Below, one piece after another: positions 20,217 to 37,611 of a stretch of DNA of 64,000 nucleotides (positions within the stretch are counted from its first letter, which is position 1; every line of letters starts with the position of its first letter). A program made the translations under genes and the position numbers. The DNA comes from Curtobacterium poinsettiae. GTDB lineage: Bacteria > Actinomycetota > Actinomycetes > Actinomycetales > Microbacteriaceae. The DNA lies in the NCBI RefSeq assembly GCF_025677645.1, contig NZ_CP106879.1:2604001-2668000 (forward strand), given 5' to 3'. The notes below the pieces were generated by a model that ran no database searches, was not told where the DNA came from, and worked only from the letters and a program-made list of their open reading frames with translations.

Positions 20217-20984
20217 TCATCGATCGGCGCTCACGGTGTCGGGTACGAGGACCGGCAGCGCCGGGGACACCCGGTCGACCGTGTGGTCGTCGGGTCGACG
20301 GACGGAACAGCCGTACCGCGAGACCTCGACGGTGACGTCCCGCTGACGGGGCGCCGATCCGAGTCCGGCCACGAGCACCACGGAGCCGTGGGGTCGGCCG
20401 TCGGCGCCCATCCGCACCGCGACCGAGGTCCCCGACGGCAGCGCGTGCACTGACAGGGTGCTCGCTGACCGGGTGCTCCGGGCTTGATCGGCGCTGCCGA
20501 TCCCCACGGCGTCGAGGACCTCGGGAGCAGCGGCCCAGCGCAGGTCCTCGTCGGTGTGGACGGCAGCGGCTCGGAGCTGCTCGGCGAGCCCGCGGAACAC
20601 CGCGACGGCGAGTGCTCCGGCACCGACGACCACGAGGTGGGACGCGGCGTCGACCCGGAGCACGCGGCCGCCCGGACAGTGCCCGAGGACGATCGCCGGC
20701 GTGCCGTCGCCGTCCTCGGGGACCGTTCCGGTCGGCGCCTCCGGCACACCGAGCGGTTCGAGCTCGGCGGGCTGGTCGGGCCCGGGCGGCGCGACGAACG
20801 CGACCGGAGGGGTCCCGGGGTCCGGCGACGCCGAACGGTGCAGCACCACGTCGACCAGGGCGCAGCACGCACCCGCGCCGAGCAGGACACCCTGCCCCGC
20901 GCCGCTGATCGGTGCGATGACCCCGGCCACGACGAGCGCGACCGCGGCCCCCACGACCACGCAACGAGCGGCGAACCGGGACAT
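20217..20984 (-). CDS. Uncharacterised membrane protein at the end of the signalling locus
   Basis: A 255-residue protein of unknown function. Two hydrophobic segments lie at about residues 7-25 and 29-47, followed by a Pro-rich linker and an Ala/Val-rich soluble part with 'RVLRVDAASHLVVVGAGALA' resembling the start of a nucleotide-binding sheet, but no P-loop follows. It lies 65 bases behind the zinc-ribbon/FHA gene on the same strand and is convergent with the asparaginase. Co-function with the locus is inferred from position only. Confidence 0.65.
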   Translation of the reverse strand: MSRFAARCVVVGAAVALVVAGVIAPISGAGQGVLLGAGACCALVDVVLHRSASPDPGTPPVAFVAPPGPDQPAELEPLGVPEAPTGTVPEDGDGTPAIVLGHCPGGRVLRVDAASHLVVVGAGALAVAVFRGLAEQLRAAAVHTDEDLRWAAAPEVLDAVGIGSADQARSTRSASTLSVHALPSGTSVAVRMGADGRPHGSVVLVAGLGSAPRQRDVTVEVSRYGCSVRRPDDHTVDRVSPALPVLVPDTVSADR

Positions 20985-21049
20985 GACCCCATCGCACCAG
21001 GAACGAGTGGCTCAGCGCCGGCCCGGGACCCGATCTGTGGAGAAGTCGC

Positions 21050-23041
21050 CTACTGCACCAGGAAGAACTGCTCACCGATGTCGACGCGTGCACCGCGTTC
21101 GACGCGGTACCGCCGGCCGGGCTCGCAGCGGCGGATCGATCCGTCGATGTGCCGCACGACCGTGCCGTTGCCGGAGAACCGGTCGGAGACCCACAGGTCG
21201 TCGCCGTCGCGGCCGAGCTCGAGGTGCGTCTTCGACACGGACTTGCCCGGGTCGTGCACGGTCAGCAGGTCGTCGTACCGCTCCCCCGGCTGCGGTCGCG
21301 GCAGTCGGCCGAGCAGGCCCGTGCCGTGCACCCCGAGCCGCTCGCCCGTGCTGAAGTGCAGCACGAACGGCGCCCGGGTCGGGGTCTTCGCGACGATGCG
21401 GGTCTCGTCGACGTCCTCGTCGGGGTCGTCGAGCGCATCGGCCACCGCGTGCGACTCCGACCGGTCGACGGGCGGGAGCGGCAGCGCGGGTCCGGTCGCT
21501 CCCGGGATCGGGGGCAGCGGTGCAGCAGCGGGCGCGCCCGTGGTGGTGGCGGACGGCACCGAGGAGGGGACGGTGGCGGAACCGGGCACCGGCGGGATCG
21601 GCGTGCGCGGCACGGCGGACGTCCCGGTCGGCGGATCGGGCTCGATCACCGGGGCAGCGTGCGCCCCGCGGGGGCGTCGGCCGACATCGGACTGCTCGAC
21701 CTCGGCGCGCAGGGACTCGTCGTCCATCGGGATCCCGTGGTGCGGCTCGTCGCCTGCGGCGCGCGCATCGGACCCGGTCGAACCCGCGGGCTCAGCCGGA
21801 CCCGGGTCAGACCCGTCCGGTTCGTCCGGCTCGTTGCCCGCGTCGGGGGCCTGCGTGCCGTCGGACTCCTCGGCTGCCCAGTCGGGTCGGGTCATCGGCA
21901 GCGGCATGACCGGGCCGGTGAAGGCCGCGGTGACCGCCGGACGGACGGCTCCGCACTCGCCGCAGAAGATGTCATCGGGCTCGAGCCGGTTGCCGCAGAC
22001 GTGGCAGATGGTCGTCTCGTGCATGCCCGGGGTGACGAGCGGGGCCGGACGGGGCGGTCGACGGTCGATCAGCGGCTCGACCACGGCGGTGTCCCCGGGC
22101 TGCGGGGGCGACACGACGGCCGGCTGGTCCTCGGTGGCGCTCTTCTCCGACGCGGCCACGACCAGCTCGTCGGGCTCCGTCCCGGAGGCGTTGCTGCCCT
22201 CGTGTGTTTCCTGGGCCTGCCGGGCGAGCTCTTCGTCTGACGCAGGAGCAGCGGTGTGCTGCTCGGTGTCCTGCTCGGTGTCCGGCTCGGAAGCAGGTTC
22301 GGCGGGTGCTCCCGGCATCGGCGGGACGACCGGGTCGGCCGGCGCCTCGGCAGCCGCGGTACCGCGGCCCACCCACCAGGACGGACCAGCGGGTGCCGCC
22401 GGGGGTGCGGTGGGAGCTGGCGGTGCCCACACCGGCACGGAGGGCTCGGCAGCGGGCTGCGGCTCGACGGACTGGGGCTCGACGGGCTGGGGCTCGACGG
22501 GCTGTCGCGCCGCCTGGTCCGGGACCGACGACGCAGCATCGCGGATCGGGTCCTCGGGCGTCTCGGGGCGACCGGGAGCCGGCGCGATCCGCGTGCGTTC
22601 GGGGTCGTCGGCATCGAGGGGTCCGGACGGGTACGCGTCGGGATCGAGGGGAGGCTCGGACTCGGACTGGCTCGGTGCACCCGACCAGTCCTCGAGCCCG
22701 GACCCGGCACCGTGCACGTGGGAGGGGGCCTGGCGCGGGGCGAAGTCGTCGGGCCGCTGCACCGGCACGGGTGCCGGCGGTTCGGTCCCACGACGGTCGG
22801 CACCGGTGAGCCAGGCACGCGTGGCGGGATCCAGCGTGGCTTCGGGCAACCAGGCGTCGGAGGCCGGGTCGGACCGTCGGCCGTGGGCGTCGGGTTGTTG
22901 CAACGGTGGCGGCGGTGCCTGTTCGACGGGGGTCGGCGCGACCGGGCGACGGTTCGCCGCGGCGGTGACCGCGCGTCCGCACTCACCGCAGAAGATCGCT
23001 CCGTCCGGGAGCATCGATCCGCAGTGTTCGCATCTGATCAC
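21050..23041 (-). CDS. Double zinc-ribbon and FHA domain protein
   Basis: A 663-residue cytoplasmic protein in four parts: a zinc ribbon (Cys4, 7, 18, 21), about 320 low-complexity residues rich in Pro, Ala, Glu and Gln with 'QPVEPQ' repeats, a second zinc ribbon near 345-368 ('CHVCGNRL' and 'FCGECGA'), another disordered stretch, and a C-terminal FHA domain (about 570-655, with 'GLLGRLPRPQ', 'VSKTHLELG' and 'SGNGTVV'). FHA domains bind phosphothreonine, so it is a likely reader of the co-encoded kinase. 'DETRIV' and 'ERTRIA' could be phosphosites. The start overlaps the preceding gene by ATGA. Confidence 0.9.
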   Translation of the reverse strand: MIRCEHCGSMLPDGAIFCGECGRAVTAAANRRPVAPTPVEQAPPPPLQQPDAHGRRSDPASDAWLPEATLDPATRAWLTGADRRGTEPPAPVPVQRPDDFAPRQAPSHVHGAGSGLEDWSGAPSQSESEPPLDPDAYPSGPLDADDPERTRIAPAPGRPETPEDPIRDAASSVPDQAARQPVEPQPVEPQSVEPQPAAEPSVPVWAPPAPTAPPAAPAGPSWWVGRGTAAAEAPADPVVPPMPGAPAEPASEPDTEQDTEQHTAAPASDEELARQAQETHEGSNASGTEPDELVVAASEKSATEDQPAVVSPPQPGDTAVVEPLIDRRPPRPAPLVTPGMHETTICHVCGNRLEPDDIFCGECGAVRPAVTAAFTGPVMPLPMTRPDWAAEESDGTQAPDAGNEPDEPDGSDPGPAEPAGSTGSDARAAGDEPHHGIPMDDESLRAEVEQSDVGRRPRGAHAAPVIEPDPPTGTSAVPRTPIPPVPGSATVPSSVPSATTTGAPAAAPLPPIPGATGPALPLPPVDRSESHAVADALDDPDEDVDETRIVAKTPTRAPFVLHFSTGERLGVHGTGLLGRLPRPQPGERYDDLLTVHDPGKSVSKTHLELGRDGDDLWVSDRFSGNGTVVRHIDGSIRRCEPGRRYRVERGARVDIGEQFFLVQ

Positions 23042-25515
23042 GTGGTGCCTCTGTCCTCACTCGGCCGTCCACGACGCGCGTCCGGCCTCTGGACATCGTA
23101 GTCGCCGTGCCCCGACGCAGCCTGGCCGTCGGTCGTCCGACGGGACCGTGCCGACGGACGGCGTCCCGTTCCCCGCAGTGACCGGAGCGAGACGGCGGTG
23201 CGGAACCGCTCCCGCCGGGTCCGCCCCCTCCGGAGCGAACCGATCGCGTCGTCGGTCGCCGACCACATGCGGTCTGCGGTGGTCTGGTCGGCATCGCTCG
23301 GACCGAACACCGCACGGTCGGCCAGCGCGGCGAGTCCGGCGCCGCCGTCGCCCGGTGCACCGACCACGGCTTCGCGTCGGGTGGCGGACCGCCGCACGTC
23401 GTGCCCGCGGTCGAGCAGTGCGTCACGGTACTCGTCCCAGGCGCCGACGATGCGACCGCGGGGTGTGGTGGCGTTCCGCCGTCGTCGGCGCCGCAGCCGC
23501 TTCAGCAGCACGATCACGGCGAACGGCAGCAGGACGAGCGCGACCACACCGAGGGTCCCGAGGGCCCAGGGCAGCACCGCGAGCAGGATCTGGAGCCAGA
23601 GCGGCTGCACCGGCGGCGTGTTCCGGTCGCTCTCGGGCGGCGCCTGCTGGTCCTGGTCCTGCTGGTCGACCGGGGGCGGCGGCACGACCGTCTCCGGTCG
23701 GGTGACCGGCTGCGGGGTCTGCTGCTGCTCGTTCGGGATCTCGCGCACCTCGGGGTTGGGATTGAGCATCACCCATCCCCACTGCGCCGTGTCCACCTCG
23801 ATGCGGGCCGTGACGTCGGACCCACGGAAGGTCGTCGTCCCGCCACGCACTGCGGCGCCGTCGCGGCCCGAGTCTCCCCCGGCCGTGAAGCCCATCACGA
23901 CCCGTGCGGGGAACCCGATCTCGTCCGCCATCAGCGCAGCCGCCGCGGCGTACTGCTCCTGGTCCCCGATCATCAGGGGTGCGGTGAGGAGCTCCTGGAC
24001 ACGGTCCGCGCCGTGGCCGGACCGACTCATCCGTTCGTCGCCCACACCGTGGCTGACGTACCCGTTCCGCTGCAGGGACTGCACCGCGGCGAGGAGCTTC
24101 GCACCGGGTGCCGACACGTCCTTCGTCGTGGACTCCACGGTGTCGCGCACGGCGTCGGGGACGTCCCGTGCGGTGGGCACGGCGGCGCTCCCCGGGCGCG
24201 CGGTGGCCAGCTGCCGTTCCGTCGGCTGGTCGGGCAGCACCGCCGTCAGGTCGTAGGACGTGCCGTCCCCCACTCCGCCGACCACGGCGCCGGTGCCGGT
24301 CGATCCGTTGTAGAAGAAGGCGCCGCGCTCGTCGTCGGCGTCCTGCCCGGTGAACTCCACGCGCTCCAGGTCACCGACCGTCGGCAGCCACACACCGCGG
24401 TACCCGTCGACCGTCACACCGACGTCGACCGTGGTGCCCCGGACGCCACGGACGTCGACCGCGGTCGGCACACGTTCGAAGGTGCCCGAGCCGGCCGAGC
24501 CGTCTGCCCCGCCCACGCGGTAGACGACGCCGTCGTAGGTGTCGAGCGTCGCGATGCGGACGAACCCGCCCTCGGGCAGGCCGGTCACCCGGAGCTGGGT
24601 CGCGTCCGAGGCGGTGGACTCCTCGTACGCGCGGAACCCGCTGAGCGGACTGACGTAGTCGCGCGGGTCGAACGGCTTCACGACGTCCGTGCGTGCGACG
24701 GTGCGCTCACCCGACGGAGGTGCGACGAGTCCGAGTCCGGTCGCCACGACCGCCGCCGCCACGATGGTGCCGGTTCCCACCAGGGCGGGACGGACGATCG
24801 ACCGCGCCACCGGCACGCGTGCACCGATGGTGGTCGCCACCGCGACCGCGCGACGCGCGTGCCGCACGGTCAGCGCCCAGACGAGGGCGAGGCCGACCAG
24901 GACGACCGCGGTCAGGATCGACGTGTCGAGCCGGCTCGGCCCGACGACGACGCCCACCGCGAAGAGCACCAGTGCCGGGATGCTCGCGAGTTCCTGCCTG
25001 GAGGCGCGGGTCGCCACGCTCACGGCCGTCACCGTGGCCACGAGCAGCGTCACGGAGTACGGCACGAGGAGCGCCTCGTAGGAGCCCACCGGCAGGCTGA
25101 TGGTCACCAGCTGCTTCCAGCCGAGGGCGACGCCGGCGAAGAGGTCGAGGAGTCCGCGTCCGGTGGGCAGCAGGCCGTTGGCCTGACTCGGCACGGCGGC
25201 GGGGACGCCGGTGAGTGTGAAGGCGGCGACGCTCGCGATCGCCACGACGGCGGTCGGCAGCCGGAACAGGGTGCCGAGGAGCGCGACGACCGTCCCGACG
25301 ACGATCGCCGTGACGGCGGCCGTGATCATCGCGCCGTCCCGGTACACCGGCCACCAGGACGTGCTCGCGACGGCCAGCAACAGCCAGACCGCCAGCGTGC
25401 CGCCGGCGAGCCGGAACGGCACGAGCCGCCGTGCGTCGCGACGGTCGGAACGCCGCGTCGAGCGCCTCGCCCGGTCCACGGCGGGGGCCGGGGCGGTCAC
25501 GGGAGCGCCGCTCAT
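23038..25515 (-). CDS. TgpA-like membrane protein with inactive transglutaminase-like domain
   Basis: The 825-residue protein has the TgpA layout: about eight N-terminal membrane helices (residues 30-275), an extracytoplasmic region, a transglutaminase-like core (about 480-590), a Pro/Gln-rich linker, one more helix near 650 and a basic cytoplasmic tail. The core aligns well ('IGFPARVVMGF'), but the nucleophile Cys is Gln519 (GDQEQ for the usual GxCEH), the His is Thr569 (VTARIEV for AHAWVEV) and the Asp is Asn585 (LNPNP for xDPTP). It should not be catalytic. Both ends overlap neighbours by ATGA. The ATG at 25515 is chosen for that coupling. Confidence 0.85.
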   Translation of the reverse strand: MSGAPVTAPAPAVDRARRSTRRSDRRDARRLVPFRLAGGTLAVWLLLAVASTSWWPVYRDGAMITAAVTAIVVGTVVALLGTLFRLPTAVVAIASVAAFTLTGVPAAVPSQANGLLPTGRGLLDLFAGVALGWKQLVTISLPVGSYEALLVPYSVTLLVATVTAVSVATRASRQELASIPALVLFAVGVVVGPSRLDTSILTAVVLVGLALVWALTVRHARRAVAVATTIGARVPVARSIVRPALVGTGTIVAAAVVATGLGLVAPPSGERTVARTDVVKPFDPRDYVSPLSGFRAYEESTASDATQLRVTGLPEGGFVRIATLDTYDGVVYRVGGADGSAGSGTFERVPTAVDVRGVRGTTVDVGVTVDGYRGVWLPTVGDLERVEFTGQDADDERGAFFYNGSTGTGAVVGGVGDGTSYDLTAVLPDQPTERQLATARPGSAAVPTARDVPDAVRDTVESTTKDVSAPGAKLLAAVQSLQRNGYVSHGVGDERMSRSGHGADRVQELLTAPLMIGDQEQYAAAAALMADEIGFPARVVMGFTAGGDSGRDGAAVRGGTTTFRGSDVTARIEVDTAQWGWVMLNPNPEVREIPNEQQQTPQPVTRPETVVPPPPVDQQDQDQQAPPESDRNTPPVQPLWLQILLAVLPWALGTLGVVALVLLPFAVIVLLKRLRRRRRRNATTPRGRIVGAWDEYRDALLDRGHDVRRSATRREAVVGAPGDGGAGLAALADRAVFGPSDADQTTADRMWSATDDAIGSLRRGRTRRERFRTAVSLRSLRGTGRRPSARSRRTTDGQAASGHGDYDVQRPDARRGRPSEDRGTT

Positions 25516-26927
25516 GCTGCCGACGCCGATCGGTGCAGGGCGTGCCGGAGGTCGTCCAGGTAGCCGATGGTCATCACCGTCAGACCCGCGACGCGCAGGA
25601 ACCGCGGCTGGGCCTCGGGCTCGCAGATCACCGCGACGACCTCCACCCCGACGGGGAACCGCGTGGCGGCGAGTCGGAGCGCGGGCAGGCCGACGGTCGA
25701 CCCCACCACGAGGAACGCGACGGAGATGCCCTCGGTGTCGCTCCCGACGATCCGGGAGACCTCGGCGATCGGCAGGCACGCGTCAGCGAGGCCGACCGAG
25801 GCGAAGTCGTCGAGCAGGCGCGTCGGCGTCACAGTGGGGAGCGTCCGCACGGCGTACACGGCACGCTTCGCGAACTCGGGCGTGCGCTGGGACACCACGA
25901 CCGAGACCTCACGGCCGTCGCGGATCGCCCGCGCGCCGAGGGACGCGGCCGCGCTCACCGCGAGCTCGAACTCCTCGTCGTCGGCGAACTCACCTCGGGC
26001 GATGCCGAGCGCGACGACGAGGTGCGAGCGACGGGTGTCCTCGAACTGCCGGACCATGAGCGCGCCGGACTTGGCCGTCGACTTCCAGTGGATGGTGCGC
26101 GGGTCGTCGCCGGGCATGTACTCGCGGATGGCGTGGAAGGCGATGTCCGCGGGCGACAGGTCCGTCGTCGCCTGCCCCTCGAGGTCGCGCACCAGGCCGG
26201 TGCTCGTCGACGGGATCGCGATCGTGCGCGGGTGCACGATGACCTGCTCGCGGGCGGTCCAGACGAGCTCGCGGCGGACGAGTCCCACCGGGTCGGCGCG
26301 GACACCCGTCACCGGACCGACGTCGAGCACCCCGCGGCGGAGCGTCGGGACCGGGACCTGCCGCTCGAAGGTACCGTGCGGCCCGATGGCCGGGATCGCG
26401 ACGTCGACCAGGCCGGATCCGACCGGCACCTCGACGGTGGTCGGCACCGACGGCAGACGCGTGGGGTTCTCGGCCGTGATGACCACGCCGGCGTCGTCGC
26501 CGACCGCCACACGGTGCTGCGGCAGCCGCATCCGGATCGCCAGCCGCGACCGGCCGATCAACGCCATCGCGGCGACCACCGCGAGCACGGCGCCGGCGAA
26601 CCCGACGACGACGATCTCCCGCAGCCCGAACCGGTAGCCGGTCACGAACGCGACGAGCGTCAGGGCGGCGACCGTCCACCCGAGCCCGGTGACGACGGAC
26701 GAGACCTCGCTCCAGAGACGCAGGACGAGCCTCCAGGCCGTTGCCCAGAGCCGGACGATCCCGATGACCGCATCAGCTGCCACGCCCTCACGGTCACCGA
26801 CGATGCGCGTCCGGACGTTGGTCATGCCGGTGACCGTCCCCGTGCGCTCGTACGCCGTCGTGCCACGACGCGACCGCGTCGAGGACGGACGGCGCGAGCG
26901 CGTGGAGACGGGCCGGCGGTCCGTCAC
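25512..26927 (-). CDS. DUF58 domain protein
   Basis: A 471-residue protein with a basic N-terminus, two adjacent membrane helices (about 75-125) and a DUF58 region whose signature 'YMPGDDPRTIHWKSTAKSG' is intact, followed by a von Willebrand A-like fold. DUF58 proteins accompany MoxR AAA+ ATPases and are thought to be their partners or clients. The GTG start overlaps the moxR stop by GTGA and the stop overlaps the TgpA-like gene by ATGA, so the three are a tightly coupled module. Confidence 0.9.
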   Translation of the reverse strand: MTDRRPVSTRSRRPSSTRSRRGTTAYERTGTVTGMTNVRTRIVGDREGVAADAVIGIVRLWATAWRLVLRLWSEVSSVVTGLGWTVAALTLVAFVTGYRFGLREIVVVGFAGAVLAVVAAMALIGRSRLAIRMRLPQHRVAVGDDAGVVITAENPTRLPSVPTTVEVPVGSGLVDVAIPAIGPHGTFERQVPVPTLRRGVLDVGPVTGVRADPVGLVRRELVWTAREQVIVHPRTIAIPSTSTGLVRDLEGQATTDLSPADIAFHAIREYMPGDDPRTIHWKSTAKSGALMVRQFEDTRRSHLVVALGIARGEFADDEEFELAVSAAASLGARAIRDGREVSVVVSQRTPEFAKRAVYAVRTLPTVTPTRLLDDFASVGLADACLPIAEVSRIVGSDTEGISVAFLVVGSTVGLPALRLAATRFPVGVEVVAVICEPEAQPRFLRVAGLTVMTIGYLDDLRHALHRSASAA

Positions 26928-27895
26928 GTCGTGACCCGGTCGGCGGGCGGCGAGGTCTCCACCAGGAGCTGCGCGATGACGCTCGGCGCGCTGACGCCGT
27001 CGAACTCGGCCTCGGCGTCGAGCACCAGGCGGTGCGCGAGGACCGGGACGGCCAGCGCTTTCACGTCGTCCGGCGTGACGTAGTGCCGGCCGCTCAGCGC
27101 CGCGAGGACACGGGAAGCGCGGATCAGGCCCATCGCCCCACGGACGCTCACGCCGAGCCGGACCTCGCTCGCGGAGCGGGTCGCGTCCACCAGGCGGGCG
27201 ACGTAGTCGGCGATCACGGCATCGACGTGCACCGTGCGCGCCAGCGCGGCCATCTCGGTGATGGTCGCGGCGGGCACGACGCTCGCCAGCGGGACCGAAG
27301 CCGACGGTGCGGACGAGGTCTCGAGGATCTTCACCGTCGCGGCGTGGTCGGGGTAGCCGATGGAGGTCTTCATGAGGAAGCGGTCGAGCTGCGCCTCGGG
27401 CAGGCGGTAGGTGCCGGCCTGCTCGATCGGGTTCTGGGTCGCGATGACCATGAAGGGCGCGGCGAGACGATGGCTGACGCCGTCGACCGTGATCGCGGAC
27501 TCCTCCATCGCCTCGAGCAGCGCGGACTGGGTCTTCGGGCTCGCACGGTTGATCTCGTCGGCGAGCACGATGTTCGCGAAGACCGGCCCGCGGTGGAAGT
27601 CGAACTCCTGCGTCCGCTGGTCGTAGACGCTGATGCCGGTGATGTCGCCCGGTAGCAGATCAGGGGTGAACTGGATGCGGTTCGTGGTGCCCTGCACGCT
27701 CTGCGCCATCGCCCGGGCGAGGCTCGTCTTGCCCGTTCCGGGGACGTCCTCGAGGAGCAGGTGCCCCTCGCTGAGCATCGCCGTGACCGCGAGGCGGATC
27801 ACGAACGTCTTCCCGAGGAGCACCTGCTCGACGTTGGTCACGATGCGGCCTGCGACGTCGGCGAACCAGGTGGCCTGCTCCGGGGTCATGCTCAT
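26924..27895 (-). CDS. MoxR-family AAA+ ATPase
   Basis: A 323-residue AAA+ chaperone-like ATPase. Walker A 'EDVPGTGKTSLARA', Walker B 'VLADEINRASPKTQSALLEAMEE' and sensor 1 'VIATQNPIEQAGTYRLPEAQLDRF' are all intact. MoxR proteins act on metalloenzyme or envelope clients together with vWA or DUF58 partners. The ATG at 27895 is used; a second ATG two codons on (27889) is possible. It lies 67 bases behind the giant Ig-like protein and overlaps the DUF58 gene. Confidence 0.93.
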   Translation of the reverse strand: MSMTPEQATWFADVAGRIVTNVEQVLLGKTFVIRLAVTAMLSEGHLLLEDVPGTGKTSLARAMAQSVQGTTNRIQFTPDLLPGDITGISVYDQRTQEFDFHRGPVFANIVLADEINRASPKTQSALLEAMEESAITVDGVSHRLAAPFMVIATQNPIEQAGTYRLPEAQLDRFLMKTSIGYPDHAATVKILETSSAPSASVPLASVVPAATITEMAALARTVHVDAVIADYVARLVDATRSASEVRLGVSVRGAMGLIRASRVLAALSGRHYVTPDDVKALAVPVLAHRLVLDAEAEFDGVSAPSVIAQLLVETSPPADRVTT

Positions 27896-27962
27896 GCGGG
27901 GTGGTCCTTCGGTCGTGGGGAGAGGTGCGGCGGAGGGCGGGTCTGGGCAGGTCGGGCGGGCG

Positions 27963-30900: not shown

Positions 30901-33836
30901 GTCACCGACCCGCCGGGGCGGATCGTGACGTGGTCGGCCTCGGCCACCGGGTTCGAGGCCTGTTCGGCACGGGGTGCGATGCCGACCCGCACGGTGCCGG
31001 TGGCGCGGGCACCGAGGGCGTCGACGACGGTGTAGGTGAACTCGTCGGTGCCGGCCGAGTAGTCGCCCGCCTCGTAGGTGAGGGCGTCCGAGGCCACGTC
31101 GGTGACCGATCCCTTGTCGGGGTTGGACCCCACGCCGACCAGCTGGACGGAGTCGCCGTCCGGGTCGATCCCGTTCAGCGGCACGCTGACCCGCACCGAC
31201 GACCCGGCGACGACGCGCGCGGTGACGGTCTGCGGGACCGGCGGGTTGTTCGTGGCGGCGTCGCGCTCGCGCACCGAGATCGACACCGCGGCGTCGGCGT
31301 ACTGGCCGTCCGGCCCGGCGACGCGGTAGACGGCGGTGTGGTTGCCCGGCGTCTTCGGGGCGAGGTAGCGCAGGTGGTCGCCGGAGGCGAACAGCAGGCC
31401 GCCGTCGCCCGGCACGTTCTGCACCAGCTCGGGCTGGAGCGTCAACGGCTCGCCCTCGGGCTGGGTGTCGTTGCCGAGCACGTCGATGTTCGCGACGTCT
31501 CCGACGCGCACGGTGGCGGTGTCCGGCTGGGCGACCGGGGGCTGGATGCGGTCGGGCTTCGGGATCTCGACGACGGTGATCGTGCCCGGGGACGACGCCA
31601 GGCCGTTCGTCTCCGTGTACCCGAACGACACCGGACCGTCGAGCGGCGCCGTGAGCGTGACGCGGACCGTGTGCTGGTCGAGGATGCTCGCCTGCACACC
31701 GCTGCCCCGTGCGGGCCCGTCCAGCGCCGTCACGAGCAGCACACCACCCGCCGGGTCGATGTCGGTCGCGGTGACGTCCGTGTCCTTCGTGGACAGCGTG
31801 TTGACGAACACCGTCTTCGGCGTGGTGATCGGCGCCGTCGAGGCGTCCGGCGGCGCGAGGACGGTCACCCGGACGATGCCGCTCGAGGTCTTCACGCCGT
31901 CCGTCACCGTGTACTCGAGCTGGTGGTCGCCCGCCCGCTCCCCCTGCACCCGGAAGGTCCCTGCGTCGTAGCTCGGGGTGACCGTGAGCCCGGACGCCGA
32001 CGACACGCTCGTCAGCGTCACGGTGCCGTTGCCACCGCGCACGTGGTCGAGCGGCTCGACCGTGAAGGCCTTGCCGGCGTAGCCGGACACGGGGAACGGA
32101 TCGGCGCGCAGCGGGACGGTGCCCTGCTTGGCGACCCGTACCGTCACGGCTCCCCGTCCGTCGGCGCGTCCGTCGCTCACGACCAGCTGCACCGACCGCT
32201 CACCGGTGCGGCCGCTGTCGTTCCGGAAGTCGAGCAGGCCGTCCGGCGTGGTGGACACCCGGTCGCCGTCCGACGCGGTCGCCGACTCCAGGTACACCGG
32301 ATCGCCGTCCGGGTCGACCCAGTCGCCGAGGACGTTCGAGACGACGTGCCCGTTCTGGACGACGTCGGCCGAAGTGTCGCGGACCTGTCGCGGGGCCTCG
32401 TTCTCGCTGTCGGGGCGCACGCTGATCCGGACGGTCGCGGTGTCCGATCCCCCGTTGCCGTCGGTGATCGTGTACGGGAACGTCACGGTCCCGGTGGCGC
32501 GCGACGACAGCGTGACCTGCAGACGTTGACCGTCGCCGACGATCGCGACGCGACCGGCGGACTTCGAGATGGTGCCGACCTCACTCACGATGATCGGGTC
32601 ACCGTTCGGGTCGTAGTCGTTGAGCAGGACCGGGAGGCTCGTGGTGCGTCCCGGACGAGCGCCCAGTTCGTCGTCCACCGCAACCGGCGGCTTCTGGTCC
32701 TTGTCGACCTCGGGGTCGTCGTCGGAGACCTGCTCCTGCTGCTGGTCGTCGTCCTGCTTGATCAGGTCGGCCCAGTTGTCGATGAGCTGACCGCTCCGGT
32801 CGATGGCCCAGGAACGGCCGCTCGTCGGGTCGTTGGCGACGACGGTGGCGCCGTTGTGCAGGATCTGCAGTTCGCTCGTGCCGCCGGTGCTCGCCAGCCG
32901 CTGCAACGCGCTGCCGTCACACGTGTCGATCGCCTGTCCGCCTGCCCAGGCCGCGTACGTGCAGGAGCCGTCGACGTAGGGCCGCGCGGCTCGTCCGGAC
33001 ACCTGGAGTGCGGTGGCGTCCACGGTGCCGGAGGCGCTGACGCGGACCAGGCCCGCCGTGCCCGCGACCGTGACCTGGGCGGTGCTGTCGGAGGACCGTT
33101 GGAGGGCCGGCGACGACCCGACCCGGTCGCCGAGCTCGACCGTGCGGCCGTCGACCGACAGGGCACCGCTCGTGCGGTCGAGCACGGCAAGGTGCCGGTC
33201 GAACGTGGCGACCTGGAAGTCGTCGCCCCGGTCCATGTCGACCTTCCACCGTTCGGCGACGGTGAGGGTCGCGCCGACGTCGACCAACGACGCCGTCCCG
33301 GTCTTCGCGGAGTAGACCGCGACGTGGCCGTCGGAGGCGTCGAAGACGGTGTCGGCGCCCAGGGTCAGGTCTGCCTTGGCCGACGCGTCGAACTCGGCGA
33401 GGTCGCTCGCGGGGGTCGCCCAGAGCTCGCCTGTGTCCGCGTTGCCGATGACCGCGGTGTCGCCCGCGAAGAAGACCTGCGGCGTCCCCGCCGGCAGCGT
33501 GATCGCGTCACCCACGGTGGCGTCGGCGACGTCGACCCGGGCGACCGTGCCCTTGGTCTCGTCGACGCTGTAGACGGTGGAGCCGCGCTGGAGCACGGAC
33601 AGGTCGTCGCTGGCCGTCTCGACCGCGGTGTTCAACTGCAGGATGCCGGTGTTCGCCCGGCCGACCGCGCCGTACTCGGCCGACGGCACCCACACGGTGC
33701 CGTCGCCGAGGTCGACACGTTGTGTGTGGTACCCGGTGGAGACGATGGCGGTGGTCGCGACGACGGCGGCGACGAGCACCGAGGCACCGGTGGTCACGGC
33801 GGCGGAGCGGTGCTTGGCGAGGAGTGCCCGGATCAC
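27963..33836 (-). CDS. Giant membrane-anchored Ig-like/fibronectin III repeat protein
   Basis: About 1,957 residues. A short basic cytoplasmic tail and one membrane helix (about 12-34) are followed by a beta-rich, possibly propeller-like region (to about 370), an acidic Gln-rich linker, about eleven Ig-like repeats of roughly 95 residues with the 'NDxDPxGDP' pattern ('LLNDYDPNGDP', 'LGNDTQPEGEP', 'LQNDSDPEGGQ'), then at least two Fn3 domains ('APGAPTRTGSYDGGQVTLTW') and a Pro/Glu tail. There is no LPXTG sorting motif, so it is held by the N-terminal helix. The GTG at 33836 overlaps the kinase stop (GTGA) and has GGGAG 6 bases upstream; another GTG at 33860 has none. Confidence 0.85.
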   Translation of the reverse strand: MIRALLAKHRSAAVTTGASVLVAAVVATTAIVSTGYHTQRVDLGDGTVWVPSAEYGAVGRANTGILQLNTAVETASDDLSVLQRGSTVYSVDETKGTVARVDVADATVGDAITLPAGTPQVFFAGDTAVIGNADTGELWATPASDLAEFDASAKADLTLGADTVFDASDGHVAVYSAKTGTASLVDVGATLTVAERWKVDMDRGDDFQVATFDRHLAVLDRTSGALSVDGRTVELGDRVGSSPALQRSSDSTAQVTVAGTAGLVRVSASGTVDATALQVSGRAARPYVDGSCTYAAWAGGQAIDTCDGSALQRLASTGGTSELQILHNGATVVANDPTSGRSWAIDRSGQLIDNWADLIKQDDDQQQEQVSDDDPEVDKDQKPPVAVDDELGARPGRTTSLPVLLNDYDPNGDPIIVSEVGTISKSAGRVAIVGDGQRLQVTLSSRATGTVTFPYTITDGNGGSDTATVRISVRPDSENEAPRQVRDTSADVVQNGHVVSNVLGDWVDPDGDPVYLESATASDGDRVSTTPDGLLDFRNDSGRTGERSVQLVVSDGRADGRGAVTVRVAKQGTVPLRADPFPVSGYAGKAFTVEPLDHVRGGNGTVTLTSVSSASGLTVTPSYDAGTFRVQGERAGDHQLEYTVTDGVKTSSGIVRVTVLAPPDASTAPITTPKTVFVNTLSTKDTDVTATDIDPAGGVLLVTALDGPARGSGVQASILDQHTVRVTLTAPLDGPVSFGYTETNGLASSPGTITVVEIPKPDRIQPPVAQPDTATVRVGDVANIDVLGNDTQPEGEPLTLQPELVQNVPGDGGLLFASGDHLRYLAPKTPGNHTAVYRVAGPDGQYADAAVSISVRERDAATNNPPVPQTVTARVVAGSSVRVSVPLNGIDPDGDSVQLVGVGSNPDKGSVTDVASDALTYEAGDYSAGTDEFTYTVVDALGARATGTVRVGIAPRAEQASNPVAEADHVTIRPGGSVTVRVLQNDSDPEGGQLTVSQAEPTAEDVTAKVLQKQQIRVTPPKSATSGDFAVLYTVANSSGGSSTAFLTVTVDPDAQPLRPEVDDTTLDLQDILHRQSVTVDVLDNVFFAEGTAADLRVGVVPGYGDTATPTDDGRITVRLTDDSQVIPFSVARTDHPDIVSYGFINVPGFDDALPQINRSAGAVTVKSEATVRIPLQDFVVTANGETAKITDRGTVKATHANGQSLVVDSSTLQFTSAKLYYGKASISFEVTDGSSANGGKGRVATLVLPITVTPRSNQPPAFTGSSLEMQPGETRKIDLTKLTDYPYPRDLPELRYSIVGRPAAGTTASIAKQQLTIAVADTARKNTTASIGIGVADDANSGRAGTVTVGVVASTRPVVQPGADRSVTKRGATTTIDVLTNDRPTNPFPGERLRVVNIRGLSGGLPSGVTVTPSGDRTRLQVSVADAAKPGDAHLQYQVADATNDPDRYVWGDVTISVQDVPDAPGAPTRTGSYDGGQVTLTWSTPQGNNSPITGYRVVGTNGVSKNCGTATVCTITGLDPKASYRFQVVATNAIGDSKPSARSGPMSADFVPAPPKGITVTPSKATPNQLDVKWGKVSAPNNGSAVDDYIVTIEGPGLSTTRHTGTATSTSFTGAQGAAQYKVTVSARNAADRNGTVVQWNSASATGSAVGTPGVPTLNASRDVSPGRTNVSLSAAESDWAGGGRTLTIVRYPPAANIPNGCSTTGSDKRWDGGSANDTLNSNGNFQYVALADNGLFCTPSRAASVQGFSAPGTASADIGVERFSEDDGTFAIRIRNPRAQPSPNGSIDHYAYSVNGGGLVSFGGNGAWVTGAAFGATVSVTVVACADGTSNFCGDGSTVGGLRPVQTRATLPDSVTAGTQLTVTAPPQNAGLQPTGYRVVFCASRYYQLCGEGTVYAPDALPTVEDAPLSRYVYVAAIVDGHEDPNPPSASIDAAPEPEQPAPEQPAPEPAPGG

Positions 33837-35245
33837 CCGGCGCTCCCGATCGTCGCGCACTTCTGCGCGCTCGCCGCGCCCGTCTTGCCGTCACGGTTCA
33901 CGGCGACGGCGATGCACTCCTCGTCACCCCGCTCGCCGGAGACGACGAACGTCGTGCCGGTCTGCTGACTCGAGGACCCGTCGGACGAGATGACGTACGT
34001 GTCGCCGCTGCGCAGCCCCGGGTCGGTCCAGCTGAAGGACACGGACTGCGGCGACGGCTCGGCACGGACCTCGTCCACGACCGGGATGGCCCCGGCGCCG
34101 AGCCGACCGACGACCACGACCGTGGCGATCGCGAGGGCGGCGACCACGACGACGGCGAGGGACGTCGCCCACACCAGGGTCGAACGGGTCCGGCGCCGGG
34201 CACGGGTCACGGACCCCGTGCGGTGCACGGTGCCGACGCTGTGCGAACCGCCGGCCACGACCCCGCCCTGCACCGCGCGGCGGGTGCGACGACGCCCGCC
34301 GACCCGGGTGGGTGGCTGCAGCTCACGGATCACGGTGCGGTCACCGTGCGGGGTCGGCGTCGAGATCGCCCAGGCCTCGACAGCAACGTCGGCGGACGTC
34401 TGCGGGATGCCGAGCTCGGCCTCGACCTGCTGGAACCCACGCACGAGTTCGATCACCGTCGCGGGACGTCCCTGCGGCTTCCGGGACAGCGCCGTCGCGA
34501 GCAGGCGCTCGAGCGAGGGCGGCACGTCGGTGCGACCGGTGGGCTTCACGCCGCCCTTGTCGATCCGGTGCATCAGGTCGTTCGCACCGTTCTTGCCGCC
34601 GCGGACCTCGAACGGGCTGCGCCCGGCGAGGAGCGAGTACACGGTCGCCGCGAGCGAGTACACCTCCGACTGGATGGTGCCGCGCGACTCGTCGATCAGG
34701 ACCTCGGGCGCGGACCACGGGATCGACATGCCGATCGGCTCGTCCGGGTCGGTGCCCCCGATCGTCGCGGCGATGCCGAAGTCGGAGAGCACGGGGTTGC
34801 CGTAGGCCGTCAGCAGGATGTTCGACGGCTTGATGTCGCGGTGCAGCACGCCCTCACGGTGTGCGGTCTCGAGCGCCGAACCAATGCGGATGCCGATCGA
34901 CAGCACCTCGGACACGGGGATCGGTTCGCGACGGTAGCGCTCGCTGAGGGACGAGGAGCAGAGCTCCATGACCAGGTAGGGACGTCCGTCAGCGGCGACG
35001 CTTGCCTGGAAGACGGTGAGGATCGACGGGTGCGTGCTGAGCCGGGCCATCAGGTTGGCCTCGGCCTGGAACATCTGGCGGACGCGGTCGTCGACGACCT
35101 CGTCCAGCAGCACCTTCACCGCGACCTGTCGTCGGGGCATGTCCTGCTCGTACAGGAAGACGTCGGCGAAGCCACCGGACCCGAGGACGTGCACGGGACT
35201 GAAACCGCCGATCACGGGCGGGTGGGACGGCAGGCGTCTCGCCAT
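33833..35245 (-). CDS. Transmembrane Ser/Thr protein kinase with Fn3-like ectodomain
   Basis: A PknB-family (Hanks-type) receptor kinase of 470 residues. The catalytic domain has Gly loop 'LGSGGFADVF' (21-30), Lys44, 'HRDIKPSN' (135-142), DFG 155-157 and APE 179-181. The juxtamembrane part contains 'DRTVIREL' (Thr304). One helix at about 358-380 leads to a small ectodomain (390-470) that reads like a single Fn3 fold ('SVSFSWTDPG') with two Cys (444, 463) and no PASTA repeats. The ATG at 35245 has GGAGG upstream. It sits between PP2C and the giant repeat protein. Confidence 0.93.
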   Translation of the reverse strand: MARRLPSHPPVIGGFSPVHVLGSGGFADVFLYEQDMPRRQVAVKVLLDEVVDDRVRQMFQAEANLMARLSTHPSILTVFQASVAADGRPYLVMELCSSSLSERYRREPIPVSEVLSIGIRIGSALETAHREGVLHRDIKPSNILLTAYGNPVLSDFGIAATIGGTDPDEPIGMSIPWSAPEVLIDESRGTIQSEVYSLAATVYSLLAGRSPFEVRGGKNGANDLMHRIDKGGVKPTGRTDVPPSLERLLATALSRKPQGRPATVIELVRGFQQVEAELGIPQTSADVAVEAWAISTPTPHGDRTVIRELQPPTRVGGRRRTRRAVQGGVVAGGSHSVGTVHRTGSVTRARRRTRSTLVWATSLAVVVVAALAIATVVVVGRLGAGAIPVVDEVRAEPSPQSVSFSWTDPGLRSGDTYVISSDGSSSQQTGTTFVVSGERGDEECIAVAVNRDGKTGAASAQKCATIGSAG

Positions 35246-35296
35246 CGTCCTCTCCTCCCCCGGCCGAGCGGCCAGCTCTCTCGACGTGGCCATGTC

Positions 35297-35302
35297 ATTG
35301 TA
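35297..35302 (-). promoter_or_regulatory. Possible internal -10 box TACAAT before the kinase
   Basis: TACAAT lies in the 130-base spacer between the PP2C stop and the kinase and would give a leader of about 45 bases carrying the GGAGG site. A 5-bp stem (35357-35361 with 35367-35371) precedes it and may weakly terminate upstream transcripts. Confidence 0.45.
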
Positions 35303-35375
35303 CGAAGCGTGGGTGACCGACATTCCGCACGCCGATCCCCCACAGCTCGACGTGTTCCCCCAGTTCGGGGGCCAG

Positions 35376-36197
35376 CTAGTGCCGCGGCAGCGTGTCCTCG
35401 AGGTCGCCGTCGTCCGGCGCGGCATCGACCTGCAGCACCACGACGGTGACGTTGTCACGGCCGCCTGCCACGACGGCGTCGCCGACCAGGCGCTCCGCAA
35501 GGTCCTGCGCGCCCGGCTCACGTGCCGCGATGCGTGCGATGCCTGCGTCGCCGAGTTCCTTGGTCAGCCCGTCGGAGCAGACGATGTAGCGGTCACCGGC
35601 CCGCAGGGGCAGGGTCCACCAGTCCGGCGCCGGCGGTTCGCCGAAGCCGACCGCTCGCGTGATGACGTTGCTGTCCGGGTGCTGTTCGGCGTCCTCGGCA
35701 CGCAGCAGGCCGGCGTCCACCATCTCCTGCACCACCGAGTGGTCGACGGTGACGCGGCGGAGCACGCCGTCCTCGATGCGGTAGGTGCGGGAGTCGCCGA
35801 CGTTGAACACGAGCGCCGCGGGCTGCCCGAGCGACGCCACGAGTGCGATACCGGTGACCGTGGTGCCCGCGCCGATGGCGTTGCCACCGGCCGCACGCTC
35901 GATGTCGGCGGTCGCGAGGAGCAGTGCACGCTGGATGCCCTGGCGCGTGGTGAACGGCTCGGCCGTCACCTGTTCGAGCCGACGCACGACCGCGTCGCTG
36001 GCGCGGTCGCCGGCGAGGTGCCCGCCCATGCCGTCGGCGACGACGAAGAACGGCGCGCCCACGATGTAGCTGTCCTCGTTGTGGTCACGCCGTCGACCGA
36101 CGTCGGTCGCGGCTCCCCACGAGAGCGTCAGGGTGGCGCCGTCGGCACCGGGGACGTCGATGGCGTGCGCAGTGGCTGCTCGGCCGAGTTCGGTCAC
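35376..36197 (-). CDS. PP2C-family Ser/Thr protein phosphatase
   Basis: A 273-residue soluble PP2C phosphatase that would reverse phosphorylation by the adjacent kinase. Metal-binding motifs are complete: 'RRDHNEDS', 'VVADGMGGH', 'SDGLTKEL' and 'GGRDNVTVVVLQV'. No membrane segment is present. The GTG start is 3 bases after the FHA gene's stop, so translation is probably coupled, and the kinase follows 130 bases later. Confidence 0.94.
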   Translation of the reverse strand: MTELGRAATAHAIDVPGADGATLTLSWGAATDVGRRRDHNEDSYIVGAPFFVVADGMGGHLAGDRASDAVVRRLEQVTAEPFTTRQGIQRALLLATADIERAAGGNAIGAGTTVTGIALVASLGQPAALVFNVGDSRTYRIEDGVLRRVTVDHSVVQEMVDAGLLRAEDAEQHPDSNVITRAVGFGEPPAPDWWTLPLRAGDRYIVCSDGLTKELGDAGIARIAAREPGAQDLAERLVGDAVVAGGRDNVTVVVLQVDAAPDDGDLEDTLPRH

Positions 36198-36200
36198 GTG

Positions 36201-37043
36201 TCAGGATCGCTCTCTGGTGGGTCGGGGCGTGCCGTGTGCTGTCTGATCGGAGGGCCACGGGGGAACCGGAGGCAGCCCCTCTGCCGTCGGTGCGACCCGG
36301 AGGTACGGCGAGAGGACCTCGATGGCGTTGCCGTCACCGATCTCGACTACCGTACCCGTCAGCGCGACGATCGACGCACCCGATGCCATGCGGTACGCGG
36401 GCGCGCCGGCCGGGCGGACGACGGTGCCGTTCGTGGACCGGAGGTCCTGCACGACGACGGCTTCGCCCTCGGCGTGCATCCGGACGTGGGACGACGACAC
36501 CTGGCCGTACGCCGACCGCACGGTCACGAGTTCGGGCTGCGGGCCACGGGTGACCCGCGGCAGCGACGGCCGTCTGCCGATGACCACGGGGTGGTCGAGC
36601 CGGAAGGTGCGGTCGCCGATGCGGATCGAGGGCACGCGTGCCGTGGGGGCGGCGGGTACCGCCGGGACGGACGGGAGGCCCGGTGCAGCACCCACGAACG
36701 GGCTCGCTCCGGCGCCGGGTCGCGCCGGCACCCGGACGACGGTGTCCTCCGGATCGACGTCGACCACGGCTGGCGGTGGCTGACCGGGTGCCCCGGGCGC
36801 GGGCCGGATGACCGTGTCACCGAGGACCCCGTCGTCGGACCCGGGGTCTGGATCGGGGTCGGAGTCGGGACCGGGGACGACGGGAGCTGCGCCGCGGATG
36901 ACGGTGTCGTCGATGGCGTCCGCCGTCCGGTCGCCCAGCGATCGTCGGGGTCGCCGGATGACGGTGTCCTCGATGTCGTCGTCGCGCAACCGGAGCCCTC
37001 CCAGCGTGGTCCCCACCACCGTAGACGATCCGGTCGACCCCAC
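36201..37043 (-). CDS. FHA domain protein with four DTV[IV]R motifs
   Basis: A 280-residue protein whose N-terminal 105 residues are disordered and contain four near-identical motifs, each D-T-V-[IV]-R, with Thr27, Thr47, Thr77 and Thr101. The C-terminal FHA domain (about 130-225) keeps 'VVIGRRPSLP', 'VSSSHVRMH' and 'STNGTVV', the phosphothreonine-binding features. The Thr motifs are good candidates for kinase sites. The GTG at 37043 lies 1 base after the upstream stop; the frame upstream has no family similarity. Confidence 0.85.
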   Translation of the reverse strand: MGSTGSSTVVGTTLGGLRLRDDDIEDTVIRRPRRSLGDRTADAIDDTVIRGAAPVVPGPDSDPDPDPGSDDGVLGDTVIRPAPGAPGQPPPAVVDVDPEDTVVRVPARPGAGASPFVGAAPGLPSVPAVPAAPTARVPSIRIGDRTFRLDHPVVIGRRPSLPRVTRGPQPELVTVRSAYGQVSSSHVRMHAEGEAVVVQDLRSTNGTVVRPAGAPAYRMASGASIVALTGTVVEIGDGNAIEVLSPYLRVAPTAEGLPPVPPWPSDQTAHGTPRPTRERS

Positions 37044-37044
37044 G

Positions 37045-37611
37045 TCATCGACGCTCCCACGACGGCCCGCTGCCCGCGACGACCGAGCGCAGGACGAGGC
37101 CGGCGAGCGGGTCGTCCGCGCGGGTCTCGAGAGCGTACCGCGCACGCGTCTCCGCCCGGGCCCACGACCCGAGCGCCCACGCGCACCAGGCACCGAGCGA
37201 CAGGGCACCGGCAGCGCCCGACGATCCGTCGAACGGGCCGTCCTGCGCCCGCCACACCCGCCACGCTTCGGCGCACCGGTCGCCGGCAACCCGCACGCGG
37301 GCCCGATCGGGAGCCGGGCCGAAACCATGGAGCGCGGGCGGAGTCGGATCCGCGAAGGGGTCGAACACCCGGATCGAACGGGGATCCGGCGTGCCCTGCG
37401 CCGCGATGAACGGCACCAGGGCCATCCGGGGCGCGAGTGCGCCGCACGCCGTCACCACGGCCGTCGCAGCGGCCGTCGACAGGACGGCGCGGCCGGGCGC
37501 GACCAGCGCGGCCGCTGCAGCGGGGAGGGTGACCGCCGCGGCGATCTCGCGAGGGAAACGGACTGCGGAGCCGGGACCGGACTGTGCCGTGAGAGGGATC
37601 ATGCACGCCAT
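37045..37611 (-). CDS. Uncharacterised protein upstream of the FHA gene
   Basis: A 188-residue product, function unknown. It has Ala-rich hydrophobic stretches at about residues 18-37 and 38-55, then a soluble helical part; the segment 'LGAWCAWALGSWARAETRARYALE' faintly resembles the C-terminal helices of DUF4192 proteins. Coding status is supported by coupling (the FHA GTG starts 1 base after its stop) and by the absence of any better frame. The start is uncertain: ATGs at 37611 and 37602 and a start at 37707 are all possible. Confidence 0.5.
   Translation of the reverse strand: MACMIPLTAQSGPGSAVRFPREIAAAVTLPAAAAALVAPGRAVLSTAAATAVVTACGALAPRMALVPFIAAQGTPDPRSIRVFDPFADPTPPALHGFGPAPDRARVRVAGDRCAEAWRVWRAQDGPFDGSSGAAGALSLGAWCAWALGSWARAETRARYALETRADDPLAGLVLRSVVAGSGPSWERR

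Follow-up and report, generated by a model that had tools for sequence, protein, structure and literature searches.

We analysed a 64,000-nucleotide stretch of the Curtobacterium poinsettiae genome (contig NZ_CP106879.1, positions 2,604,001 to 2,668,000; hereafter, the window), whose minus strand carries, between positions 20217 and 37611, ten genes for, among others, a Ser/Thr kinase, a PP2C-type phosphatase, two FHA proteins, a giant envelope protein and a MoxR-DUF58-TgpA module. This locus is almost certainly a PFNA-type operon outside Bifidobacterium, and the transglutaminase-like TgpA protein of the operon has, judging by alignments, very probably lost its enzyme activity and become a pseudoenzyme. 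As far as our searches reached, both the spread of the PFNA operon beyond Bifidobacterium and the apparent clade-wide death of its transglutaminase, together with the tie of this loss to the giant protein, are new.

In the accessible parts of the PFNA literature (PMC8430577, PMC6803598, PMC10688814), the Bifidobacterium operon consists of pkb2, fn3, aaa-atp, duf58 and tgm; some species also have prpC, a hypothetical gene and fha. The operon and its FN3 protein are stated there to be exclusive to Bifidobacterium, and the operon is linked to the host immune system in gut bifidobacteria. An earlier note on this DNA, made from the sequence alone, knew of no described function for the gene set; the set is that of the PFNA operon. 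The core order of kinase, FN3 giant, MoxR, DUF58 and TgpA on one strand is shared by the window and the bifidobacterial loci L111-L125. PP2C (prpC) and FHA genes lie near the window core too, but their position differs, both being upstream of the kinase in the window. The 1,957-residue giant of the window aligned with three Bifidobacterium giants at 30.3-31.1% identity over 1,709-1,749 positions (E 1e-154 or better); its best FN3 match is at residues 1477-1544, and the B. longum FN3 protein is given in the literature as 1,994 residues long, its FN3 domains lying at 1494-1671. Unlike the bifidobacterial operon, the window also encodes an additional FHA protein that carries zinc ribbons, and it contains two genes without a counterpart in other loci. 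In the mycobacterial moxR1 operon, as described in the accessible part of a review that already remarks on the likeness to PFNA (PMC12067865), MoxR likewise adjoins DUF58, but a vWA protein stands in the place of TgpA and there is no FN3 giant.

In a scan of named genomes with a TgpA alignment, 80 of 527 confirmed relatives were listed, 80 being a lower bound; the scan pattern left the nucleophile residue free, so that Cys was not excluded, and favoured an EQ[YF]A context. Among the matches listed, 45 were titled Bifidobacterium, 2 Bifidobacteriaceae and 33 otherwise, the last from Cellulomonas, Actinotalea, Sanguibacter, Jonesia, Cellulosimicrobium, Pseudactinotalea, Sinomonas, Paenarthrobacter, Microbacterium, Micrococcales and Propionibacteriaceae. 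The full set of giant, MoxR, DUF58 and TgpA was present in 45 of the 47 Bifidobacterium/Bifidobacteriaceae loci and in 29 of the 33 others among these matches. As to the incomplete loci, L126, L165 and L189 lie on short contigs, L178 and L180 gave no MoxR call, and L179 has no giant. The 29 non-bifidobacterial loci with the four core genes contradict the restriction of PFNA to Bifidobacterium.

In a sample of 297 genomes of the window's order, a TgpA relative was found at E 1e-3 in 267, plain paralogs included, and at E 1e-40 or better in 154 (counted by hand). In a sample of 396 genomes of the phylum, the N-terminus of the giant, used as a single-sequence query, was matched in 13; therefore, the system thins out or diverges outside the order. 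At the Microbacterium locus L188, TgpA shares 49-65% identity with its counterparts in L029, L030, L032 and L105, which belong to the window's family group, and 33% with that of the window itself. Two genomes of this family group carry three PFNA-type loci each (L024, L031 and L040; L025, L028 and L037), with quite different giants.

Gene order was tallied in 132 loci (135 distinct loci less 3 at contig ends), in all of which TgpA is present by selection. The loci were about 20 kb long, so the counts are lower bounds; they amount to 132 for DUF58, 131 for the giant, 128 for MoxR, 125 for a kinase, 89 for FHA and 59 for PP2C. Four loci had no separate MoxR call, and in L074 the MoxR match falls on the open frame of the giant; six MoxR residues were the same in every one of the 128 loci aligned. 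The kinase is ahead of the giant in the window, Bifidobacterium and Cellulomonas, and behind a block of zinc-FHA, PP2C and FHA genes in Microbacterium and Paenarthrobacter; in L098, exceptionally, the giant is downstream of TgpA. Since the giant-MoxR-DUF58-TgpA order recurs in distant genomes, the locus is more than a chance arrangement. The view of the earlier note that stoichiometric production seems required is not supported and does not fit this conservation, because PP2C and FHA were found in only part of the loci and the kinase varies in place, preceding the giant in some loci and closing the operon in others. What is supported is its picture of a conserved unit with a kinase, phosphatase, FHA proteins and MoxR that look active and a membrane-anchored giant.

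The TgpA-like protein of the window (23038-25515; Pfam TgpA_N and Transglut_core) comprises transmembrane segments, an ectodomain, a last transmembrane segment and a cytoplasmic tail, and thus keeps the transglutaminase-like ectodomain after the TgpA_N membrane domain. However, alignments place GDQEQYA (23947-23967) opposite the GYCxxF/Y motif of active relatives, and the positions of the catalytic Cys, His and Asp are taken by Q, T and N; the earlier note overlooked the absent Cys. None of 139 operon loci, bifidobacteria included, has Cys at the nucleophile position, where we found S in 54, D in 36, G in 26, E in 13, A in 8 and Q and P in one each (duplicates L073 and L075 were excluded; L148 and L150, gapped in the alignment, were read by hand). 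In the first alignment, with two rows unscored, 27 of 135 loci had H at the His position and 55 had D at the Asp position. A Gly-His pair just upstream of the dead site is present in 137 of the 139 Cys-less copies (it is missing in L240, and L091 was not scored by the pattern) versus 7 of 32 Cys-bearing ones; its conservation in the Cys-less copies therefore points to a retained new role.

The TgpA of P. aeruginosa is reported to be active in vitro, and the PA2875-PA2873 unit resembles the window in combining MoxR, DUF58 and a TgpA with the same ectodomain fold, but its TgpA keeps the catalytic triad, and the window adds the giant and the kinase circuit (PMC3507681, accessible part). A profile of the operon TgpA matched the P. 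aeruginosa TgpA ectodomain (6g49) best in the PDB, at E 1.9e-8, with the replaced residue opposite its Cys. The structural model of the window's ectodomain (predicted local distance difference test, pLDDT, 87.8) has the same best PDB match (E 2.8e-14); a phmmer search of the PDB with the single window TgpA sequence found nothing. In the parts of the PFNA literature that were accessible, the tgm product is named a transglutaminase or a presumed cysteine protease. No paper calling PFNA TgpA inactive was found in the open-access literature, subscription papers being mostly outside this search.

The same genome contains a second MoxR-DUF58-TgpA unit (L192; G000:C1:3395716-3397959), which keeps the motif GYCVHF and has no giant. 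Thirty-one further plain units of this kind were picked from search matches and fetched with about 11 kb of upstream sequence. Cys was present in all 32 plain loci and a giant in none, and a giant was found in 135 of the 139 Cys-less loci, the remainder being three contig ends and one exception. In a TgpA tree of 76 sequences (44 Cys-less and 32 with Cys), rooted by the Cys-bearing L192, the Cys-less proteins form one clade with support 1.0, and loss of Cys takes one change versus at least 18 with shuffled labels. The single Cys-less clade therefore indicates one loss event, strongly retained ever since.

The giant (27963-33836) has an N-terminal transmembrane segment (residues 11-29), a beta-propeller, an array of immunoglobulin (Ig)/cadherin-like domains (seven stretches matching Pfam Big_9), two matches to fn3 and a C-terminal region without a family, and is collinear with the Bifidobacterium FN3 protein. 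The propeller (residues 37-352; 32781-33728) matches no Pfam family and was recognized from an AlphaFold2 model with a mean pLDDT of 93.8. The best PDB match of this model is 1l0q (E 3e-10, TMq 0.54), the YVTN propeller-PKD of an archaeal S-layer protein, in which a propeller is also followed by Ig-like repeats at the cell surface; at 14% identity, however, the likeness is one of fold only. Searching the PDB with a profile built from propeller sequences yielded only weak hits (E 0.35-0.9), of which six out of seven were designed Pizza propellers. The open frames of the giants have a median length of 2,054 residues (5-95% range about 1,800-2,450, n=132). In an early Cys-less branch (L038, L039, L240 and L241) the giant is short, 786-994 residues, with propeller and FN3 and no Ig array, which suggests that the Ig array is a later addition; Pfam detected no SH3 or wall-binding domain in these short forms. 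The FN3 region of the L240 giant, from another family of the phylum, weakly matches the Pfam families Tissue_fac (E 0.0045) and Ig_ILCR1 (E 0.0067), which resemble cytokine receptors, both below cut-off. In L077, L079 and L188, the full-length giant is directly preceded by another, shorter open frame that matches the profile of the giant, either a tandem copy or a frame effect.

The window kinase (33833-35245; Pfam Pkinase, 132.6 bits) has its kinase domain at residues 18-262, one transmembrane segment at 355-373 and a short ectodomain that looks FN3-like by eye only. Alignment shows retained catalytic residues in the kinase domain, in the phosphatase (35376-36197; Pfam PP2C_2; NCBIfam Stp1 family at 186 bits, below the cut-off of 230), whose metal-binding residues are among them, and in MoxR (26924-27889; Pfam AAA_3, 213 bits), with its Walker A/B, sensor and Arg-finger residues. 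A juxtamembrane DRTVIR motif is present in the kinase at 34325-34342, and the N-terminal tail of the first FHA protein (36201-37043; Pfam FHA, 23.8 bits against a cut-off of 20.7) contains four DTV[IV]R motifs (36954-36968, 36894-36908, 36804-36818 and 36732-36746). The relaxed motif D/E-x-T-V/R-L/I/V-R occurs between the kinase domain and the membrane in 35 of 61 non-bifidobacterial kinases, as compared with a mean of 0.5 and a maximum of 4 in 200 shuffles; linkers were readable in 76 of the 110 kinases found. In the genome studied here, one of nine readable kinases has it, namely, that of the operon.

The reading that we consider best supported, though our confidence in it falls somewhat short of even, is that a dead transglutaminase handles a wall-spanning giant in a process powered by MoxR and gated by phosphorylation. 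According to it, a giant envelope protein with beta-propeller, Ig and FN3 domains would have become linked to a MoxR-DUF58-TgpA enzyme unit, whose enzyme turned into a non-catalytic partner. MoxR, DUF58 and TgpA would form a membrane machine in which MoxR spends ATP on remodelling the DUF58/TgpA pair. The dead ectodomain would cross-link nothing and would instead bind or dock the giant at the outer face, and this docking may control how the giant is displayed, tethered or held under tension across the cell wall. The state of the machine would be set by the kinase, the phosphatase and the FHA proteins; we infer that in many lineages the D/E-x-T-V/R-L/I/V-R motif beside the kinase transmembrane segment is phosphorylated and then bound by an FHA domain. 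Part of this is not new: for B. longum, the accessible literature reports that Pkb2 phosphorylates MoxR, and a published model has MoxR 'possibly involved' in FN3 folding, so that control by the kinase of MoxR-driven folding of the giant, also put forward in the earlier note, is an already published, unproven hypothesis. Co-transcription and cytokine binding are published, in the parts seen, for B. longum only.

Several observations weigh against this reading. Docking of the giant on the dead TgpA domain is proposed from co-occurrence alone, and, Cys loss being a single event, the tie between loss and giant has one origin, not many independent ones. The Sinomonas locus L179 is Cys-less with no giant nearby, and a kinase gene is found near 3 of the 32 Cys-bearing loci (downstream in L282, L283 and L284). 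The relaxed motif is absent from all 15 readable bifidobacterial kinases and barely enriched in FHA-protein linkers (18 of 127; shuffle mean 10.8, maximum 16), and a few kinases have altered catalytic residues or alignment gaps. A strict DTV[ILV]R docking motif for FHA domains common to all members was rejected, being nearly confined to the window proteins. Loss of the metal-ion-dependent adhesion site (MIDAS) of DUF58 was rejected as a mark of the operon: the full DxSxS motif was found in none of 134 loci and is also absent from the window DUF58, but the DUF58 encoded next to this genome's Cys-bearing TgpA lacks it as well.

The published PFNA model takes the operon for a device of host immune sensing, with the FN3 protein as a binder of cytokines, TNF-alpha among them, and the kinase as the sensor of the host. 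In its favour, the accessible parts of that literature give data on binding, adhesion and expression in B. longum and B. bifidum, and such sensing could be a later use within bifidobacteria. As an account of the operon it has, in our judgement, a small chance, since the collinear giant and operon are also found in Cellulomonas, Actinotalea, Sanguibacter, Jonesia, Microbacterium and others, and since the motif WSx[DEP]S, built from the published WS-DS/ES/PS classes, is present in 24 of 83 giants outside the bifidobacteria and in 24 of 49 within them, and not in that of the window. It is quite improbable that TgpA still acts as an enzyme through another nucleophile, such as the Ser of 54 of the 139 loci, or by other chemistry. 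The fold is indeed retained and Ser predominates in bifidobacteria, but in other loci D, G, E, A, Q or P takes its position, and the His and Asp positions are kept in only the 27 and 55 of 135 loci mentioned above.

More serious, if still doubtful, is the idea of a general envelope-stress or wall-integrity regulon, with the kinase circuit as output and the giant as a passive sensor rod spanning the wall, MoxR-DUF58-TgpA doing no more than assembling it: giant frames are long throughout, as expected of such a rod, and most loci (125 of 132) have an adjacent kinase. A MoxR-vWA-beta-propeller ternary conflict system is hardly credible. The window MoxR does match Pfam bpMoxR (E 6e-9) and the giant has a propeller, but the match of this MoxR to AAA_3 is far stronger (E 1e-63), and the architecture disfavours such a system, the propeller sitting on the giant and not being fused to a vWA component. 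If phosphorylation-gated handling of the giant is extended to the whole range of the operon, one may tentatively picture a widespread actinobacterial envelope machine, MoxR-driven and phosphothreonine-gated, in which a killed transglutaminase acts on the outer face as the receptor or clamp that receives the wall-spanning propeller/Ig giant; this would be a general device of the cell wall that bifidobacteria came to use late for what is called host-immune signalling. We regard this wider picture as rather unlikely at present.

The usual explanation of the PFNA operon needs rethinking. Work on probiotic bifidobacteria takes the operon as their own immune channel and TGM as an enzyme; both premises change if the operon is general and TGM dead, and drug-like uses of FN3 fragments would then need non-host controls. 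The genome studied here offers a direct comparison of what MoxR-DUF58-TgpA units do, having one with a live and one with a dead enzyme, the latter tied to a giant client.

As for the remaining genes, Pfam and an open reading frame check recovered the ten minus-strand genes with the domains named in the earlier note, with small corrections to starts and junctions. The DUF58 protein (25512-26825, or from a GTG at 26927; 437 residues, two transmembrane segments; Pfam DUF58, 45.9 bits) has no further Pfam domain. Downstream of TgpA lie genes for a 663-residue double zinc-ribbon/FHA protein (21050-23041; Pfam Zn_Ribbon_1, and FHA at 22.1 bits against a cut-off of 20.7) and a 255-residue protein with one N-terminal transmembrane segment (20217-20984), for which no family scored above cut-off and no counterpart was found in the other compared loci. 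The first gene, a 188-residue open reading frame (37045-37611) with no counterpart in these loci either, probably falls outside the conserved system; it resembles the C-terminus of DUF4192 (E 0.006, 17 bits against a cut-off of 27.8; profile positions 240-320 of 321). This likeness is confined to the C-terminal quarter, and the frame may be a gene remnant. Four WXG100 matches were found in the genome, all outside the window, in line with the note's reading that WXG100 is absent; EccC was not searched for.

Where five 4-base overlaps had been claimed, we read four, between kinase and giant, MoxR and DUF58, DUF58 and TgpA, and TgpA and the zinc-FHA gene, that of MoxR and DUF58 holding only with the in-frame GTG at 26927 as the DUF58 start. 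The two close junctions described in addition were confirmed as gaps of 1 base (first gene/FHA) and 3 bases (FHA/PP2C). PP2C and the kinase are some 50-130 bases apart, depending on the start chosen. In this region (35225-35390), a TACAAT-like -10 box can be seen by eye right ahead of an in-frame kinase ATG; it is a possible leaderless internal promoter that would divide the ten genes into two transcripts.

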